Assembly (NCBI GenBank): GCA_029054245.1
Contig: JAIDFQ010000004.1
Location: 62,001 to 126,000 of the forward strand
Origin: Lachnospiraceae bacterium
GTDB taxonomy: Bacteria > Bacillota > Clostridia > Lachnospirales > Lachnospiraceae
Direction: 5' to 3'
Length of the DNA: 64,000 nt
Positions 4,752-62,011 of this stretch are shown here, piece by piece (the first letter of the stretch is position 1; each line of letters starts with the position of its first letter). A program made the translations under genes and the position numbers. The notes beneath the pieces are model-generated. The model was not told the origin of the DNA, ran no database searches, and saw only the letters and a list, made by a program, of their open reading frames with translations.

Positions 4752-6068
4752 ATGCAATCTATTCTTACATTTATTCAATCCATCAATCAGTTTTTGTGGA
4801 GTGGTCCACTTTTATTCCTGCTGATGGGAACGCATCTATATTTTACCATGAAACTGCATTTCCCGCAGAAAAATATTTTAAAAGCAATCAAGCTTTCCGT
4901 AACCCCTGCCAGCAATAAGGAAGGAAATAACCTCTCCGTCTTTGCAACCCTCTCTACCACTCTGGCAGCCACCTTGGGCACCGGCAATATCATAGGCGTC
5001 TCCACGGCAGTCGCCCTAGGTGGTCCGGGCGCCATCTTCTGGTGCTGGATCACCGGCATTCTGGGGATGGCAACCGCATATTCCGAATGTTTCTTAAGCG
5101 TCCGCTTCCGAAGCCGCGCCAAAGACGGTACTTACCAAGGAGGACCTATGTATGTCTGGGAAAATGGTTTACATAACAAATCCGTAGGGAAATTCTACGG
5201 TCTCCTTACACTGATTGCCGCTTTCGGCGTGGGGTGTACTACCCAGTCCAATTCCATCACCCAGACGACCTCTCTAAGCTTTGGCCTAAACCCACATATT
5301 GCCGGATTTCTTGCCGCCTTTACCGCAGGTCTGGTCATTGTAGGCGGAATCCGCTCCATCGGCAACGTATGCGTGAAAATCGTTCCTTTTCTGGGTATCC
5401 TTTACACGATAAGCTGCATCTTGCTTCTTATCATAAACCGGGAAGCCTTCCTGCCCGCCATCCGCCTGATCTTAACCCACGCCCTTGCCCCCCGGGCTGC
5501 TATTGGCGGCGCCGCCGGCTCCTCCCTGATCATCACCGCACGCTACGGCATTGCCAGAGGACTCTTCACCAACGAGGCTGGCATAGGAACCGCCGCCATT
5601 GCCGCTGCCGCATCGGAAACTGACAATCCCGCCCATCAGGCGTACGTATCCATGACAGCCGTCTTCTGGGACACCGTAGTCATGTGCCTTTTAAGCGGTC
5701 TTGTCATCGTCACCAACATGATTCTGCACCCCGAATCCGCCGCCGGTGTCAATGAAGCCGGACTTACTGATGCCGCCTTTTCCTACCTGCCGCTATTTGG
5801 AAACGTCTTCCTGTCCATATGCCTGATTGCTTTCGCCATCACCACCCTGATTGGATGGTCCTACTTGGGAGAACAGGCTTACCGCTATCTGACCCAAAAT
5901 AAAGCCATCTCTTTTTACAAAGTTGCTTACATTGTTATGATTTACGTAGGCGCCGTCCTGCCTTTAAACCTGGTCTGGGAATGTACCGACTTGATCAACG
6001 CCTGCATGATTATTCCCAACGTAGCGGCTCTTTTTCTCCTGCAAAAATACCTGCATTCCAGAATCTAG
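4752..6068 (+). CDS. Alanine/glycine:cation symporter (AGCS) family
   Basis: ATLGTGNIIGVSTAVALGGPGAIFWCW and FTNEAGIGTAAIAAAASETDNP. Confidence 0.93.
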   Translation: MQSILTFIQSINQFLWSGPLLFLLMGTHLYFTMKLHFPQKNILKAIKLSVTPASNKEGNNLSVFATLSTTLAATLGTGNIIGVSTAVALGGPGAIFWCWITGILGMATAYSECFLSVRFRSRAKDGTYQGGPMYVWENGLHNKSVGKFYGLLTLIAAFGVGCTTQSNSITQTTSLSFGLNPHIAGFLAAFTAGLVIVGGIRSIGNVCVKIVPFLGILYTISCILLLIINREAFLPAIRLILTHALAPRAAIGGAAGSSLIITARYGIARGLFTNEAGIGTAAIAAAASETDNPAHQAYVSMTAVFWDTVVMCLLSGLVIVTNMILHPESAAGVNEAGLTDAAFSYLPLFGNVFLSICLIAFAITTLIGWSYLGEQAYRYLTQNKAISFYKVAYIVMIYVGAVLPLNLVWECTDLINACMIIPNVAALFLLQKYLHSRI

Positions 6069-16607: not shown

Positions 16608-17915
16608 TTATTGCACTGTTTTAAATGCTTCCTCAAGGTCTTCTATGATATCATCGATGTTTTCTGTTCCGATGGACAGGCGAATCGTGTTAGGATAAAT
16701 ACCCTGCTGCGCCAGTTCTTCTTCATTTAGCTGGGAATGGGTGGTGGATGCAGGGTGGATGACAAGGGATTTTACGTCTGCCACGTTTGCAAGCAGTGAA
16801 AATAGTTCCAGATTGTCAATAAATGCCTTGGCTTTCTTTGCATCGCCCTTGATTTCAAAAGTGAAGATGGAACCACCGCCATTTGGGAAGTATTTTTTGT
16901 AAAGTTGCTGTTGTTCAGAATCATCTGCTACGGAAGGATGGTGTACTCTTTCAACTTGGGGATGATTTTTCAGGTAATTTACCACTTTAAGCGCATTTTC
17001 TACATGGCGTTCTACTCTAAGGGATAAGGTTTCAAGTCCCTGGAGGAAGAAAAATGCATGGAAGGGGGAAAGAGTGGCACCTGTGTCGCGGAGCAGGATG
17101 GCGCGGATTTTGGTCACAAAGGCTGCCGCTCCCACTGCTTTGGTAAAGCTGATGCCATGGTAGCTGGGGTTTGGCTGTGTAAGAGACGGAAACTTACCGC
17201 TTGCCTCCCAGTCGAACTTGCCACTGTCAACAATCACGCCTCCGATGGTAGTGCCGTGTCCTCCGATGAATTTGGTGGCGGAATGTACCACGATATCTGC
17301 GCCATATTCAATGGGACGGACCAGATAGGGCGTTGCAAAGGTGTTATCGATGACCAGCGGAATCTTGTGCTGATGAGCAATCTTTGCAATTTTCTCTATA
17401 TCCACCACGTCTGAATTGGGATTTCCAAGGGTTTCGATAAATACCGCTTTCGTATTTTCCTGCACCGCTGCATCCACTTCCTCATAATGGAAGGGGTCTA
17501 CAAAGGTCGTTTCAATTCCATACTCGCGCAGGGTATGTGCCAGCAGATTATAGGTTCCGCCATAGATGTTCTTTGCTGCCACAATATGGTCTCCGGCATG
17601 TGCAAGGTTCTGGATAGTGTAGGAAATGGCTGCTGCTCCTGATGCTACCGCCAAAGCTGCCACGCCGCCCTCCAAAGCAGCAATTCTCTGTTCAAATACA
17701 TCCTGTGTGGGATTGGTCAGTCTGCCATAGATGTTTCCGGCATCACTTAAGCCGAACCTTGCCGCCGCGTGTTCGCAGTTTTTGAACACGTAGGAAGACG
17801 TCTGATAAATCGGCACTGCCCTTGCATCCGTCACCGGATCTGCCTGCTCCTGCCCTACATGGAGCTGTAATGTTTCAAATTTTAAGTTTCTCTCTGCATA
17901 TGTTTTCTTACTCAT
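16608..17915 (-). CDS. metY: O-acetylhomoserine aminocarboxypropyltransferase / cysteine synthase
   Basis: Cys/Met metabolism PLP enzyme; VVHSATKFIGGHGTTIGGVIVDSG and the long OAH-sulfhydrylase insert. Confidence 0.93.
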   Translation of the reverse strand: MSKKTYAERNLKFETLQLHVGQEQADPVTDARAVPIYQTSSYVFKNCEHAAARFGLSDAGNIYGRLTNPTQDVFEQRIAALEGGVAALAVASGAAAISYTIQNLAHAGDHIVAAKNIYGGTYNLLAHTLREYGIETTFVDPFHYEEVDAAVQENTKAVFIETLGNPNSDVVDIEKIAKIAHQHKIPLVIDNTFATPYLVRPIEYGADIVVHSATKFIGGHGTTIGGVIVDSGKFDWEASGKFPSLTQPNPSYHGISFTKAVGAAAFVTKIRAILLRDTGATLSPFHAFFFLQGLETLSLRVERHVENALKVVNYLKNHPQVERVHHPSVADDSEQQQLYKKYFPNGGGSIFTFEIKGDAKKAKAFIDNLELFSLLANVADVKSLVIHPASTTHSQLNEEELAQQGIYPNTIRLSIGTENIDDIIEDLEEAFKTVQ

Positions 17916-18031
17916 TTTTTACCTCTTTCTCAGGTTACCCTGTATCCTTATTATTTATTTCCTATCGGTTTACTATGGTATCATCATAATATAATCCGCT
18001 TTTCATGTCCAATATAGAAAAACATGCACCA

Positions 18032-18052
18032 GTTATAGTTTATACCTATAAC
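18032..18052. promoter_or_regulatory. Candidate operator upstream of metY
   Basis: GTTATAG-TTTATAC-CTATAAC palindrome between the rrf2 3' end and the metY promoter region. Confidence 0.45.
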
Positions 18053-18085
18053 CAATGCATACTTTTTACCTAAGTTTCTGCCTGC

Positions 18086-18520
18086 TTAAATAATATACTG
18101 ATCTGATTTTTCCTGATGCCACTCAACCAGATCCGCCAGCGTTATGCCATCCACAACCTGATTCACGGCATCGTTCAGCTTTTCCCAGACCCTTACCGTC
18201 ACACAGCCTTCCCTGCGCTCACATTCCATTCCATCCTTCCCAACACAGTTCACCGGCGCTAAATCCCCTTCTGTCAGCCGCAGAATCATTCCTACCGTAT
18301 ATTCCGAAGGGGCTTTTGCAAGCATGTAGCCTCCCTGGGCGCCCCTGATGCTCCTTACAAATCCCGCCTTATTGAGCAAAGAGATGATCTGTTCAAGATA
18401 CTTTTCTGAAATCTGCTGTCTTCTGGCAACATCCTTTAAACTAATGGGTTCTCCCGTATTATAAACTGCCAGATCCAGCAGCAGCCTTAATGCATATCTT
18501 CCTTTCGTTGAAATCTTCAT
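18086..18520 (-). CDS. Rrf2 family transcriptional regulator
   Basis: MKISTKGRYALRLLLDLAVYNTGEPISLKDVARRQQISEKYLEQIISLL; three-cysteine cluster region. Confidence 0.93.
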   Translation of the reverse strand: MKISTKGRYALRLLLDLAVYNTGEPISLKDVARRQQISEKYLEQIISLLNKAGFVRSIRGAQGGYMLAKAPSEYTVGMILRLTEGDLAPVNCVGKDGMECERREGCVTVRVWEKLNDAVNQVVDGITLADLVEWHQEKSDQYII

Positions 18521-18724
18521 CCTATCAAGCCCTCTCCAGCTCTTTCTCCACAATTTCATAAACCAGTCTGACATCATTTTCTAATGTCATTTCTCCAAAT
18601 GCAGAAATTTGCTTACTTCATTTTTACATATAAGTATATCAAAGATTAGGCACTTTCGTAACTCCCCTTTTTACTTTTCGTATTTTTCGGGTAACAGTTT
18701 AGCCTGCAAGGTCAGGGCTATCTT

Positions 18725-21700
18725 TTATAAATTCCTCCCACATAAAAACGCATACCCATCCATAATCTCCTTCTGCGTTCCTCCTCCAATAAAATAATAG
18801 TCCATCTGGTCTTTATTTTCTGTATAGAGATAAGAACCATATGCCGGGATATTGCAAAAAAGGCAATCCGCATCTGCAATCGGCAGAATCCCATATCCTT
18901 TATCTGAGATCAGGAAAGGCAGTTCCTGCACATGTTCTCCATAGGAAATATACCTGGCTGTTGCCTGCAGCTTTACTCCTGACTGTCCTTCCCCTCCCGC
19001 AGCATACAAAGTCTCTCCCTTCTGCCAGTTAAGATAGAGCCAGTTCCGCATTTTTCCGTCCGGTCCCATTTCCATCTGCCTGCACTCCCGCGCCCGCTCT
19101 GAAAGCAACAGCTTTTTATCCCGTGTCATATAGCTGACGGCACCGCCTGCTTTATCTACCTTAAGGTATAATGCGTCCGTATAAAGCTCTACCGCACTTG
19201 TATTTTCTTTGTACATCCACATGCGGTCTGTCCCAGAAACGGCAATCCGAAAATCTGTCTTTGCCGTGATATTCCCGCCCTTTGCAAAAGTCACACGGAT
19301 GATGTCACTTCTGACAGGGCTTAAGCGCAGTGCGCCATAACGGCTATGAAGATACACGCCATCCGCCTGTTTTGCCGTCCAGCGTACTGCAAGGTCGATC
19401 TTCCCATGCCCCGCCGGACGCAGCAGTTCCGTTGCCGGCAGGTCTTTGAATGCATGTCCCGTCCGCTCTGGCGGGCGTTTGTTTATTACGGATTGGGGCT
19501 TAGCCGCTACTAAATCTGGCTCCTTGACCTGCTCTTTTGTCTGTCCTTCATAAGAGGATCCCGCGCGCCTTATGATAAACGGTTTTTTATCTTCCGGCGT
19601 CTGCCTGCTGGCAACTGTTGCAACGGGTCTTTTCCTTGCAACTGCCATCCTGCTATCATCTGGCGTAAGAACAGGCTTTTTCGTTTGCACCTGCGTACCG
19701 TTTAGGGAAGTTTTCTTCTTTTCCTCTTCTTTTCCCTCACCTAATACTGCAGTTGCCCGTTTATCCAGTATATTCTTTTTGCTTAGGGGCTTTTGCGTGA
19801 TCAAATCCGTGGGATTTCCTGTATGCAGGATGCAAAGCTCATGCAATCCGCGGGTCGCCGCCACGTAAAGCAGCCTGGCATGTCCGTCGTCTTCCGGATA
19901 CTCCTTTTTTGTGGGATCTAAAATCAGCACCGCGTCAAACTCCAGTCCTTTTGTATATTCCACCGGCAGCACCATGATTCCGTTGCCGAATACTGCCTTT
20001 TCCAAATCGCTTTCCAGGATTTCTACATACTCCTTAAGTTCCGCGGCGGTCTTTGCTGCCTGTGCCTTGTTCCGGCAGACGATGGCTATGGTATCAAGTC
20101 CTTTTGCCTGCCAGCCCATGCAGGTATCGGCTGCTTCCTTTATCATGGCTTTGTGGTTGGAAATCTGCCGCACCCTGACCGGACTTCCGTGCCTTATGAT
20201 GGGTTCAACCGGATAGATGGAAAACTGTCCGTGATGCAGAATATTGGTGGCAAAATCTGATATTTCCACGGTGTTCCGGTAACTCTTTTTTAAAATACCA
20301 AAACTGTCCATGGCATCCGGCAAAAGTAGCTTTCTTAATTCCTCCCAGTCATTTAATCCATAACCAAAGTGTATGTTCTGGGAGACATCCCCCATAACGG
20401 TATAGGTACACCCTGTCATGCAGAACTTTAATACATAATATGCCATCATCCCAAAATCCTGCGCCTCGTCGATGACAACATGATGCGCCTCGCTGATGAC
20501 ATCCTTTTCCTTCACCCGCTTGTACAGATAAGAAAGCGCCGCAAGATCATATACATCAAATGCATCCTTCGGAATATCTACCGCATACCCCTTTTTAATC
20601 TGCCCGGTCATAAACTCCTGATACATCTCATAAATAGAACGCTTCCAGATCCTTCCCCCAAATTTTCCTCTGTATGCCTTTAGGATCGCCTTCCGTTCCG
20701 CTTCTGTATATGGAAGACCTTTCCCCAAAAATTCATCTTTGATTTTACTGGTCAAACGCTTATTCAGCATATTGATCTTATTTTGAATGGACACAGCCGG
20801 ATTATCCCGCACGTAAGTTTCTATGGTTTTTCCATCCAGCAGACAGACCAGATTTTGAGGCGCCTCCCCTCCCTTCGTCTCGTCGAACACGCCTGCCTTG
20901 CCATCCTTTATGCCCTCCACAAACTGCTTTCTATTCAGATAGACACTGTCTCTGGAAATCGCTTCTGCCTCCACCATCTGACAATACTTCTCTAAATCCT
21001 CAAACCATGCTTTGCTGCCCTTGACAATCTCCCTATTGCCATTTTTATTATCAAGCCTTTTAACATTATACTTGCTTTCGTCCCAATCCTCGTACAAAAG
21101 TCTTGTGAAAAGCTGCTCCATAGTCATCTGCCGCACGCCATATACATCCAGATCCGGCAGCACTCCTGTAATATACTGAAGCAGCATCCGGTTGCTTCCA
21201 ACAATGTAAAAATCATCCGGCTTAAACCGCTCCTTGTAATTGTACAAAATATAAGAGATACGGTGCATGGCTACCGTCGTTTTGCCGCTCCCTGCCACCC
21301 CCTGCACAATGATATTGTGGTAAGGCGATTTTCTGATAATCTCATTCTGCTCCTTTTGAATAGTTGCTACAATTTCTCCCAGAACTGCCTGCTTATTTTT
21401 TGCCAGATACTTGGTCAGCAGGTCATCATTGGCAATCACTTCACTGTCAAAATAGTCTAATAGCTTTCCCTTATCAATCTCATAAGTACGCTTATTTTTC
21501 AAATCGATTTTAATCGGGCTGCCGTCCGGCGCTTTGTAACTGCATCTGCCCATCCCATTTTCATAATAGGCGTTTGCCACAGGCGCCCGCCAGTCAATCA
21601 CGATCTGGTGGGTGGTATCTTTTGAAATGCCTCCTCTCCCAATATAAAGGGTTTCTACCTTATCGAGAAGTTCATCATGAAAAATGATTCTTCCGAAATA

Positions 21701-21964
21701 CGGTCTGCTTAAGGCTTTCTCATTGCGCATAAACGCACGCTTCATATGTTCATACAATGTCACCGTCGTATTTAAGATGGAAAATACCTCTGGATCATTG
21801 TCATGGTAATGCTCCAACATCTCATCGATGTCTTTCTGCATACGCGCAATTTCCTGCTCATAGTTTTTTATATTATCCTTAATGACGGCAAGCGTCTGTT
21901 TCAGATGGTTTTTCTCTTCCTGCCTGGATGTTGAAAAACCTTCTTTTTCATTTTCTACATGCAT
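18725..21964 (-). CDS. HelD-like UvrD/Rep superfamily helicase with C-terminal GH31-N-terminal-like (mutarotase-fold) domain
   Basis: Walker A IIVQGVAGSGKTTVAMHRISYILYN, VIDEAQDFGMMAYYVLK, LLYVAATRGLHEL; C-terminal VYLHSRYGALRLSPV...LPFLISDKGYGILPIADADC...DQMDYYFIGGGTQKEIMDGYAFLCGRNL. Confidence 0.88.
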   Translation of the reverse strand: MHVENEKEGFSTSRQEEKNHLKQTLAVIKDNIKNYEQEIARMQKDIDEMLEHYHDNDPEVFSILNTTVTLYEHMKRAFMRNEKALSRPYFGRIIFHDELLDKVETLYIGRGGISKDTTHQIVIDWRAPVANAYYENGMGRCSYKAPDGSPIKIDLKNKRTYEIDKGKLLDYFDSEVIANDDLLTKYLAKNKQAVLGEIVATIQKEQNEIIRKSPYHNIIVQGVAGSGKTTVAMHRISYILYNYKERFKPDDFYIVGSNRMLLQYITGVLPDLDVYGVRQMTMEQLFTRLLYEDWDESKYNVKRLDNKNGNREIVKGSKAWFEDLEKYCQMVEAEAISRDSVYLNRKQFVEGIKDGKAGVFDETKGGEAPQNLVCLLDGKTIETYVRDNPAVSIQNKINMLNKRLTSKIKDEFLGKGLPYTEAERKAILKAYRGKFGGRIWKRSIYEMYQEFMTGQIKKGYAVDIPKDAFDVYDLAALSYLYKRVKEKDVISEAHHVVIDEAQDFGMMAYYVLKFCMTGCTYTVMGDVSQNIHFGYGLNDWEELRKLLLPDAMDSFGILKKSYRNTVEISDFATNILHHGQFSIYPVEPIIRHGSPVRVRQISNHKAMIKEAADTCMGWQAKGLDTIAIVCRNKAQAAKTAAELKEYVEILESDLEKAVFGNGIMVLPVEYTKGLEFDAVLILDPTKKEYPEDDGHARLLYVAATRGLHELCILHTGNPTDLITQKPLSKKNILDKRATAVLGEGKEEEKKKTSLNGTQVQTKKPVLTPDDSRMAVARKRPVATVASRQTPEDKKPFIIRRAGSSYEGQTKEQVKEPDLVAAKPQSVINKRPPERTGHAFKDLPATELLRPAGHGKIDLAVRWTAKQADGVYLHSRYGALRLSPVRSDIIRVTFAKGGNITAKTDFRIAVSGTDRMWMYKENTSAVELYTDALYLKVDKAGGAVSYMTRDKKLLLSERARECRQMEMGPDGKMRNWLYLNWQKGETLYAAGGEGQSGVKLQATARYISYGEHVQELPFLISDKGYGILPIADADCLFCNIPAYGSYLYTENKDQMDYYFIGGGTQKEIMDGYAFLCGRNL

Positions 21965-22080
21965 CTATGCTTTCCTCCCCTTTTGCTTTTCCGCAGGATT
22001 AATTTCTAATTATAGTGTAATAAAAAAAAGAAAAATTACTAGACTTTATTTTTCAAATGTGATAAACTGGACAATAGAGT

Positions 22081-61945: not shown

Positions 61946-62011
61946 ATAAACTTATCATATCATATGCAGAGGTATTCAAATCGTTCATAGCTGTTTACCG
62001 ATATCTGTTCT

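Follow-up and report, generated by a model that had tools for sequence, protein, structure and literature searches.

A HelD-like motor fused to a GH31 N-terminal-type domain in Lachnospiraceae

What is a domain from a family of glycosidases doing at the end of a transcription motor? HelD, a motor driven by ATP, inserts an arm into the secondary channel of RNA polymerase and releases stalled polymerase from DNA. In the window - the whole stretch of DNA analysed here, 64,000 nt from positions 62,001 to 126,000 of contig JAIDFQ010000004.1 of Lachnospiraceae bacterium GCA_029054245.1 - a single open reading frame of 1079 residues on the reverse strand (18725-21964; the features of this gene given below lie on the same strand) joins a HelD motor, a linker and a domain resembling the N-terminal domain of GH31 glycosidases. 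The frame opens with an ATG at 21964, upstream of which a ribosome-binding site, GGGGAGG (21974-21980), can be read from the sequence; a promoter scan at the gene gave matches no better than those in shuffled sequence. We confirm that this HelD-GH31N fusion architecture is real in the window, and ask below how the fusion arose and what the additional domain may do.

The first 722 residues (19799-21964) constitute an SF1-like HelD motor. Among all NCBIfam models the best match is HelD_BACSU (NF041464, E 1.3e-97), with a score of 327.6 bits that lies below the equivalog cut-off of 419 bits, so that the protein reads as a HelD relative to which this model does not grant the status of a B. subtilis equivalog. 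The best PDB match by sequence is 6wvk_H, B. subtilis HelD on RNA polymerase (phmmer, 1.6e-68), and the same chain is the top Foldseek match of the motor. An N-terminal helical hairpin, corresponding to the HelD secondary-channel arm, occupies residues 14-84 (21713-21925), with helices at residues 14-52 and 58-84 in the AF2 model and an acidic tip (D55/D57/E59) at the turn, of which D57 and E59 are nearly invariant among 48 orthologues. In the same 48 sequences every position but one of the Walker A motif GVAGSGKT (residues 222-229; 21278-21301) is invariant, as is Walker B, DEAQD (residues 499-503; 20456-20470), and the Walker-adjacent residues are largely so. The hallmark of class III HelD is an extra residue in DWR[A/S]P (PMC10719064); the window motor has DWRAP without it. 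The motor thus presents the features of class I, namely the secondary-channel arm with its acidic tip, DWRAP and the ATPase motifs, and helicase motifs are all present through VAATRGLHEL, which agrees with the proposal in the earlier note of a complete helicase followed by a charged linker. B. subtilis HelD (class I; PDB 6wvk, 6zca) shares the arm with acidic tip, DWRAP and the SF1 motifs, but is 774 aa long and ends after the motor, with neither linker nor tail. The gene is therefore predicted to encode a functional class I-like HelD active in polymerase recycling, a prediction that forms part of the overall explanation put forward below. No second HelD was found in the window genome, so HelD function there would rest on the fusion protein.

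The C-terminal tail has a quite different affiliation. A scan of the tail alone yields PF13802 (GH31 N-terminal, galactose-mutarotase-like) with E 5e-5 and 24.1 bits, which falls under the Pfam cut-off of 27 bits; of 50 orthologous tails, 32 match the same model (E up to 0.01; best E 6e-12). Residues 868-1078 also match an NCBIfam model for alpha-xylosidase, PRK10658, and a profile of the tail family retrieves GH31 enzymes (alpha-xylosidases) from the PDB at 5.4e-16. An AF2 model of the tail, with 50 orthologues as input, reaches pLDDT 91.2 and pTM 0.91, and the best 50 matches listed when it is compared with the PDB by Foldseek are all GH31-type glycosidases. By these comparisons residues 862-1062 (18779-19381) form a GH31 N-terminal-type beta-sandwich. 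The alignment with GH31 extends as far as the last helix ahead of the barrel, equivalent to residues 1063-1079 at the protein end (18728-18778; helix at 1064-1075 in the AF2 model), and the window frame then ends at GYAFLCGRNL, past which point GH31 relatives read GKAxxLPxWAxGxxQSQERYE, the start of the barrel. The frame ends before the (beta/alpha)8 barrel that carries the nucleophile and acid/base of catalysis; nor is a barrel encoded just downstream, where the next gene is that of an Rrf2 regulator, and the sole PF01055 barrel in the window genome sits elsewhere, away from the fusion gene. Sequence and model comparisons together confirm that the tail is a complete GH31 N-terminal-type beta-sandwich. 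The earlier note had proposed just this, a mutarotase-fold GH31 N-terminal domain in a frame that stops where the TIM barrel would start: sequence, profiles, structure prediction and a survey of orthologues all agree on the domain, the prediction having returned a mutarotase-like beta-sandwich, and the stopping point is seen in the GH31 alignment. It had also covered most of the feature, the conserved region beginning slightly earlier, near 19438, with a tail-specific lead motif, LRPxGHxKID (residues 843-857; 19394-19438), found by aligning tails with GH31.

Between motor and tail lies a disordered basic linker of low conservation (residues 723-838; 19451-19798), delimited by pLDDT, omega and orthologue lengths. 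It is about 110 residues long in the window and 69-196 among orthologues, and in a full-length AF2 model pLDDT is <50 across residues 729-834. Because of this low pLDDT, and because the model does not fix the placement of motor and tail relative to one another (pTM 0.54), the natural reading of the linker is a flexible tether. No defined docking of the tail onto the motor emerges from the full-length model; a tether would explain this, but is not thereby proven.

How might such a domain serve a polymerase motor? The N-terminal domain of GH31 enzymes is not itself catalytic. We suggest that a single fusion in one Lachnospiraceae HelD lineage put this non-catalytic beta-sandwich behind a long disordered linker, that it would no longer serve a glycosidase, and that it may have been exapted as a tethered docking domain holding the motor to a putative protein partner, either RNA polymerase or an associated factor. 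Docking of this kind would raise local concentration or steer loading and release. The architecture, the single origin, the selective maintenance, the predicted fold and tether and the loss of many GH31-fixed positions come from the analysis reported here, and from there we infer that the tail docks to a partner protein and that this affects recycling, loading or release. Against the account it counts that many relatives have a HelD with no tail. Taken whole, this account of a standard HelD motor with an exapted, tethered docking domain has, in our judgement, about an even chance of being right.

The charge of the protein raises a different possibility, namely that tail and basic linker together bind nucleic acid during recycling, either DNA behind or ahead of the polymerase or the transcript. 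The linker carries a net charge of +12 in the window and a median of +6 among orthologues, and the tail is slightly basic (median +5), whereas the motor is acidic (median -18). However, orthologous tails span charges from -2 to +13, that of the window standing at +3, and we know of no GH31 N-terminal domain that binds nucleic acid. We therefore consider a nucleic-acid anchor unlikely.

Could the tail instead have kept an interest in sugars? Gut Lachnospiraceae live off carbohydrates, and the tail is clearly homologous to the N-domains of alpha-glucosidases and xylosidases of GH31, so it might detect a carbohydrate (e.g. glycogen or an oligosaccharide) and couple polymerase recycling to carbon supply. 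Yet the barrel, missing here, provides most of the substrate pocket of GH31 enzymes, the N-domain adding an N-loop that forms part of the active-site pocket (PMC4742823). We compared the tails with 25 GH31 relatives. The GH31 N-domain (PF13802, Gal_mutarotas_2), e.g. that of BoGH31A, Xac1773, YicI or FjDex31A, is a homologous sandwich up to the pre-barrel helix; the window tail differs in lacking the barrel and C-terminal domains that follow there, and in being attached to a motor. By alignment, residues 987-1015 (18920-19006) would be the counterpart of the N-loop. In this segment GLGQ and HQAN, fixed in GH31 enzymes, are mostly lost from the tails, and the GH31-fixed Q180, Q197 and N199 occur in 0-6% of them. 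The tails keep 3 of 12 GH31-fixed positions in residues 987-1015 against 15 of 25 elsewhere, a contrast that is suggestive only (Fisher p 0.08). A GH31 insertion of ~35 residues containing an invariant DG is also missing. Residues of the fold type, by comparison, are kept (G877, R890, W916, E956, E984, S1020, G1023, Y1024, G1025, G1043, D1055, Y1057 and F1058), and these would be expected to hold the sandwich. The tails have in addition conserved positions of their own: R962, K982, A1003, C1037 and the extra LRPxGHxKID lead, in which P843, L848, G852, H853 and D857 are conserved and G852/H853 have no GH31 counterpart. Because most of the putative N-loop positions and the insertion are lost, fold residues are kept and new positions gained, the pattern suggests a reused fold rather than a preserved sugar site. 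The sugar-binding function implied by the earlier note thus finds no support here, given the loss of most GH31-fixed positions from the putative N-loop segment and the non-catalytic nature of the domain. No carbohydrate gene neighbourhood is conserved, and we regard a sugar sensor as improbable. Much the same low probability attaches to a broader version, in which the tail senses a ligand or partner and ties RNA polymerase recycling to a metabolic signal; if true, this HelD would have a regulatory input for which no precedent is known among these motors.

It may also be asked whether the tail does anything specific at all, or is a passenger that simply folds. Tail-less HelD is common in Lachnospiraceae, and in one orthologue a frameshift within the linker divides the gene, both of which speak for this reading. 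The pattern of substitution argues otherwise: over 16 close pairs (Nei-Gojobori) the median dN/dS is lowest in the motor (0.09), intermediate in the tail (0.16) and highest in the linker (0.27), very-low-divergence pairs being noisy (one tail omega of 1.27 rests on a dS of 0.006). With an omega of 0.16, lower than that of the linker, the tail is under purifying selection and is therefore maintained as protein. Moreover, strongly conserved tail residues are not shared with GH31, and the fused form is retained in frame in 58 of the 59 collected clade members. A passenger without a role consequently has only a slim chance of being the answer.

In the split orthologue (genome G224, locus L111; G224:C1, about 4919-5028 of the locus) motor and tail occupy two overlapping frames, separated in the linker near an A-run. 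A programmed frameshift was rejected, this being one case only and the A-run, GAGAAAAAAGC, lying outside the canonical slippery register; the split is likely an assembly or sequencing error or a recent mutation, and less probably a real separation of the two parts.

The distribution of the fusion bears on its origin. The 58 fused proteins collected (window included) and the frameshift-split one all come from Lachnospiraceae. Within the window's genus the fusion occurs in 29 of 38 genomes examined; the other nine have no HelD of this type at all, rather than lacking just the tail, which is present in 29 of the 29 that do. An even sample of 397 Lachnospiraceae genomes yields 33 carriers from about 25 genera, a count that takes frames of about 1000 aa or more, matches cut by contig ends and one split gene. 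Every fused match in a sample of the order is from Lachnospiraceae, and samples of the class (291 genomes) and phylum (339 genomes) revealed no further fusion, the other matches being ordinary GH31 enzymes of ~800 aa; the distribution rests on genome samples, and rare members may occur elsewhere. In a tree of 81 HelD motors without their tails, rooted at midpoint, the fused proteins form one clade (SH-aLRT 98) whose sister group consists of tail-less Lachnospiraceae HelDs (SH-aLRT 99 for both together), and the tails likewise form one clade against GH31 (100/100). The motor and tail trees fit a single fusion followed by vertical keeping, and we conclude that there was apparently one fusion event with vertical retention since. 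A local fusion or assembly error, or a chance frame, has next to no chance of explaining the gene, since the in-frame architecture recurs in dozens of separately assembled genomes from about 25 genera, and nothing was found in favour of such an error. The fusion is also present in public assembly BLLW01000066 and on a contig that another study obtained from faeces, and the orthologue survey proposed in the earlier note found the tail carried in the same frame, not as a separate gene.

Several individual cases deserve mention. In one genome (G432; L117 and L164) a fused HelD occurs alongside a tail-less one from the sister group, which shows that both forms can coexist. Another case is a subclade of the fused proteins (L104, L110-L114), mostly from large genomes (5.7-6.9 Mb): its Walker A reads GGAGSGKT rather than GVAGSGKT, and its intact proteins stop shortly after the DYF motif, without the terminal helix. 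The N-domains closest to the tails belong to ~800-aa GH31 enzymes of a different family in the class (L161 and L162, from G993 and G894), which points to the kind of enzyme that donated the domain.

The surroundings of the gene are less informative. Directly downstream is the gene for the Rrf2-family regulator, which together with that for a Cys/Met-metabolism PLP enzyme (window 16608-18577) is common to close species only. No gene neighbourhood is conserved across the fused clade, so no partner is hinted at, and a carbohydrate operon context was rejected on the grounds that neighbours are conserved only among the closest species. An anti-phage system was likewise set aside: the PADLOC matches are confined to generic, UvrD-like portions of helicases (GajB and others), and none covers the tail. 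A full HelD-GH31N fusion beside ABC transporter genes occurs in MT836747.1 (982-4215; L200), an UNVERIFIED faecal scaffold filed as 'Bacteriophage sp.'. This is the sole 'phage' record, and since it carries ABC transporters and no phage gene was seen among its large ORFs, it is probably a piece of bacterial chromosome; a phage origin was rejected on this basis. The matches on plasmids turned out to be ordinary enzymes with a TIM-barrel annotation, and a plasmid origin was also rejected.

Has the architecture been seen before? The tail domain also goes by DUF4968, which we take to be the former name of PF13802. The Methods of Newing et al. 2020 include 74 + 37 CDART matches labelled DUF4968 domain-containing, chosen to characterise HelD-like sequence (PMC7749167). 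In that paper the domain is counted in the Methods and not discussed in the main text, and it is absent from the text of the 2021 HelD class survey (PMC8655204); in the literature searched we found no other paper pairing DUF4968 with HelD or a helicase. To judge from the Methods, the DUF4968 HelD-like group of Newing et al. very probably has the architecture of the window fusion. The earlier note was right about the fusion, but the architecture, which it called unexpected, was not wholly unseen, such proteins having been retrieved in 2020 (PMC7749167). As far as we have searched, the architecture is visible in databases yet undescribed, and as far as we could find the role of the extra domain has not been studied.

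HelD clears stalled polymerase and in B. subtilis also shields it from rifampicin (PMC12802891). B. subtilis HelD works jointly with the delta subunit, a protein missing from Clostridia (PMC7749167), and the window genome differs from B. subtilis accordingly: we found no HARE-HTH/delta-type protein there with a search that detected one in B. subtilis. That the tail compensates for the missing delta is speculation, because tail-less clostridial HelDs are also without delta. An exapted docking domain would offer a handle on HelD recruitment or release in bacteria without a delta subunit, and its function is directly testable. A major gut-bacterial family has kept a sugar-enzyme domain on a transcription motor since an apparently single, old fusion, in what may be a case of a domain from a carbohydrate enzyme recruited to work in transcription.
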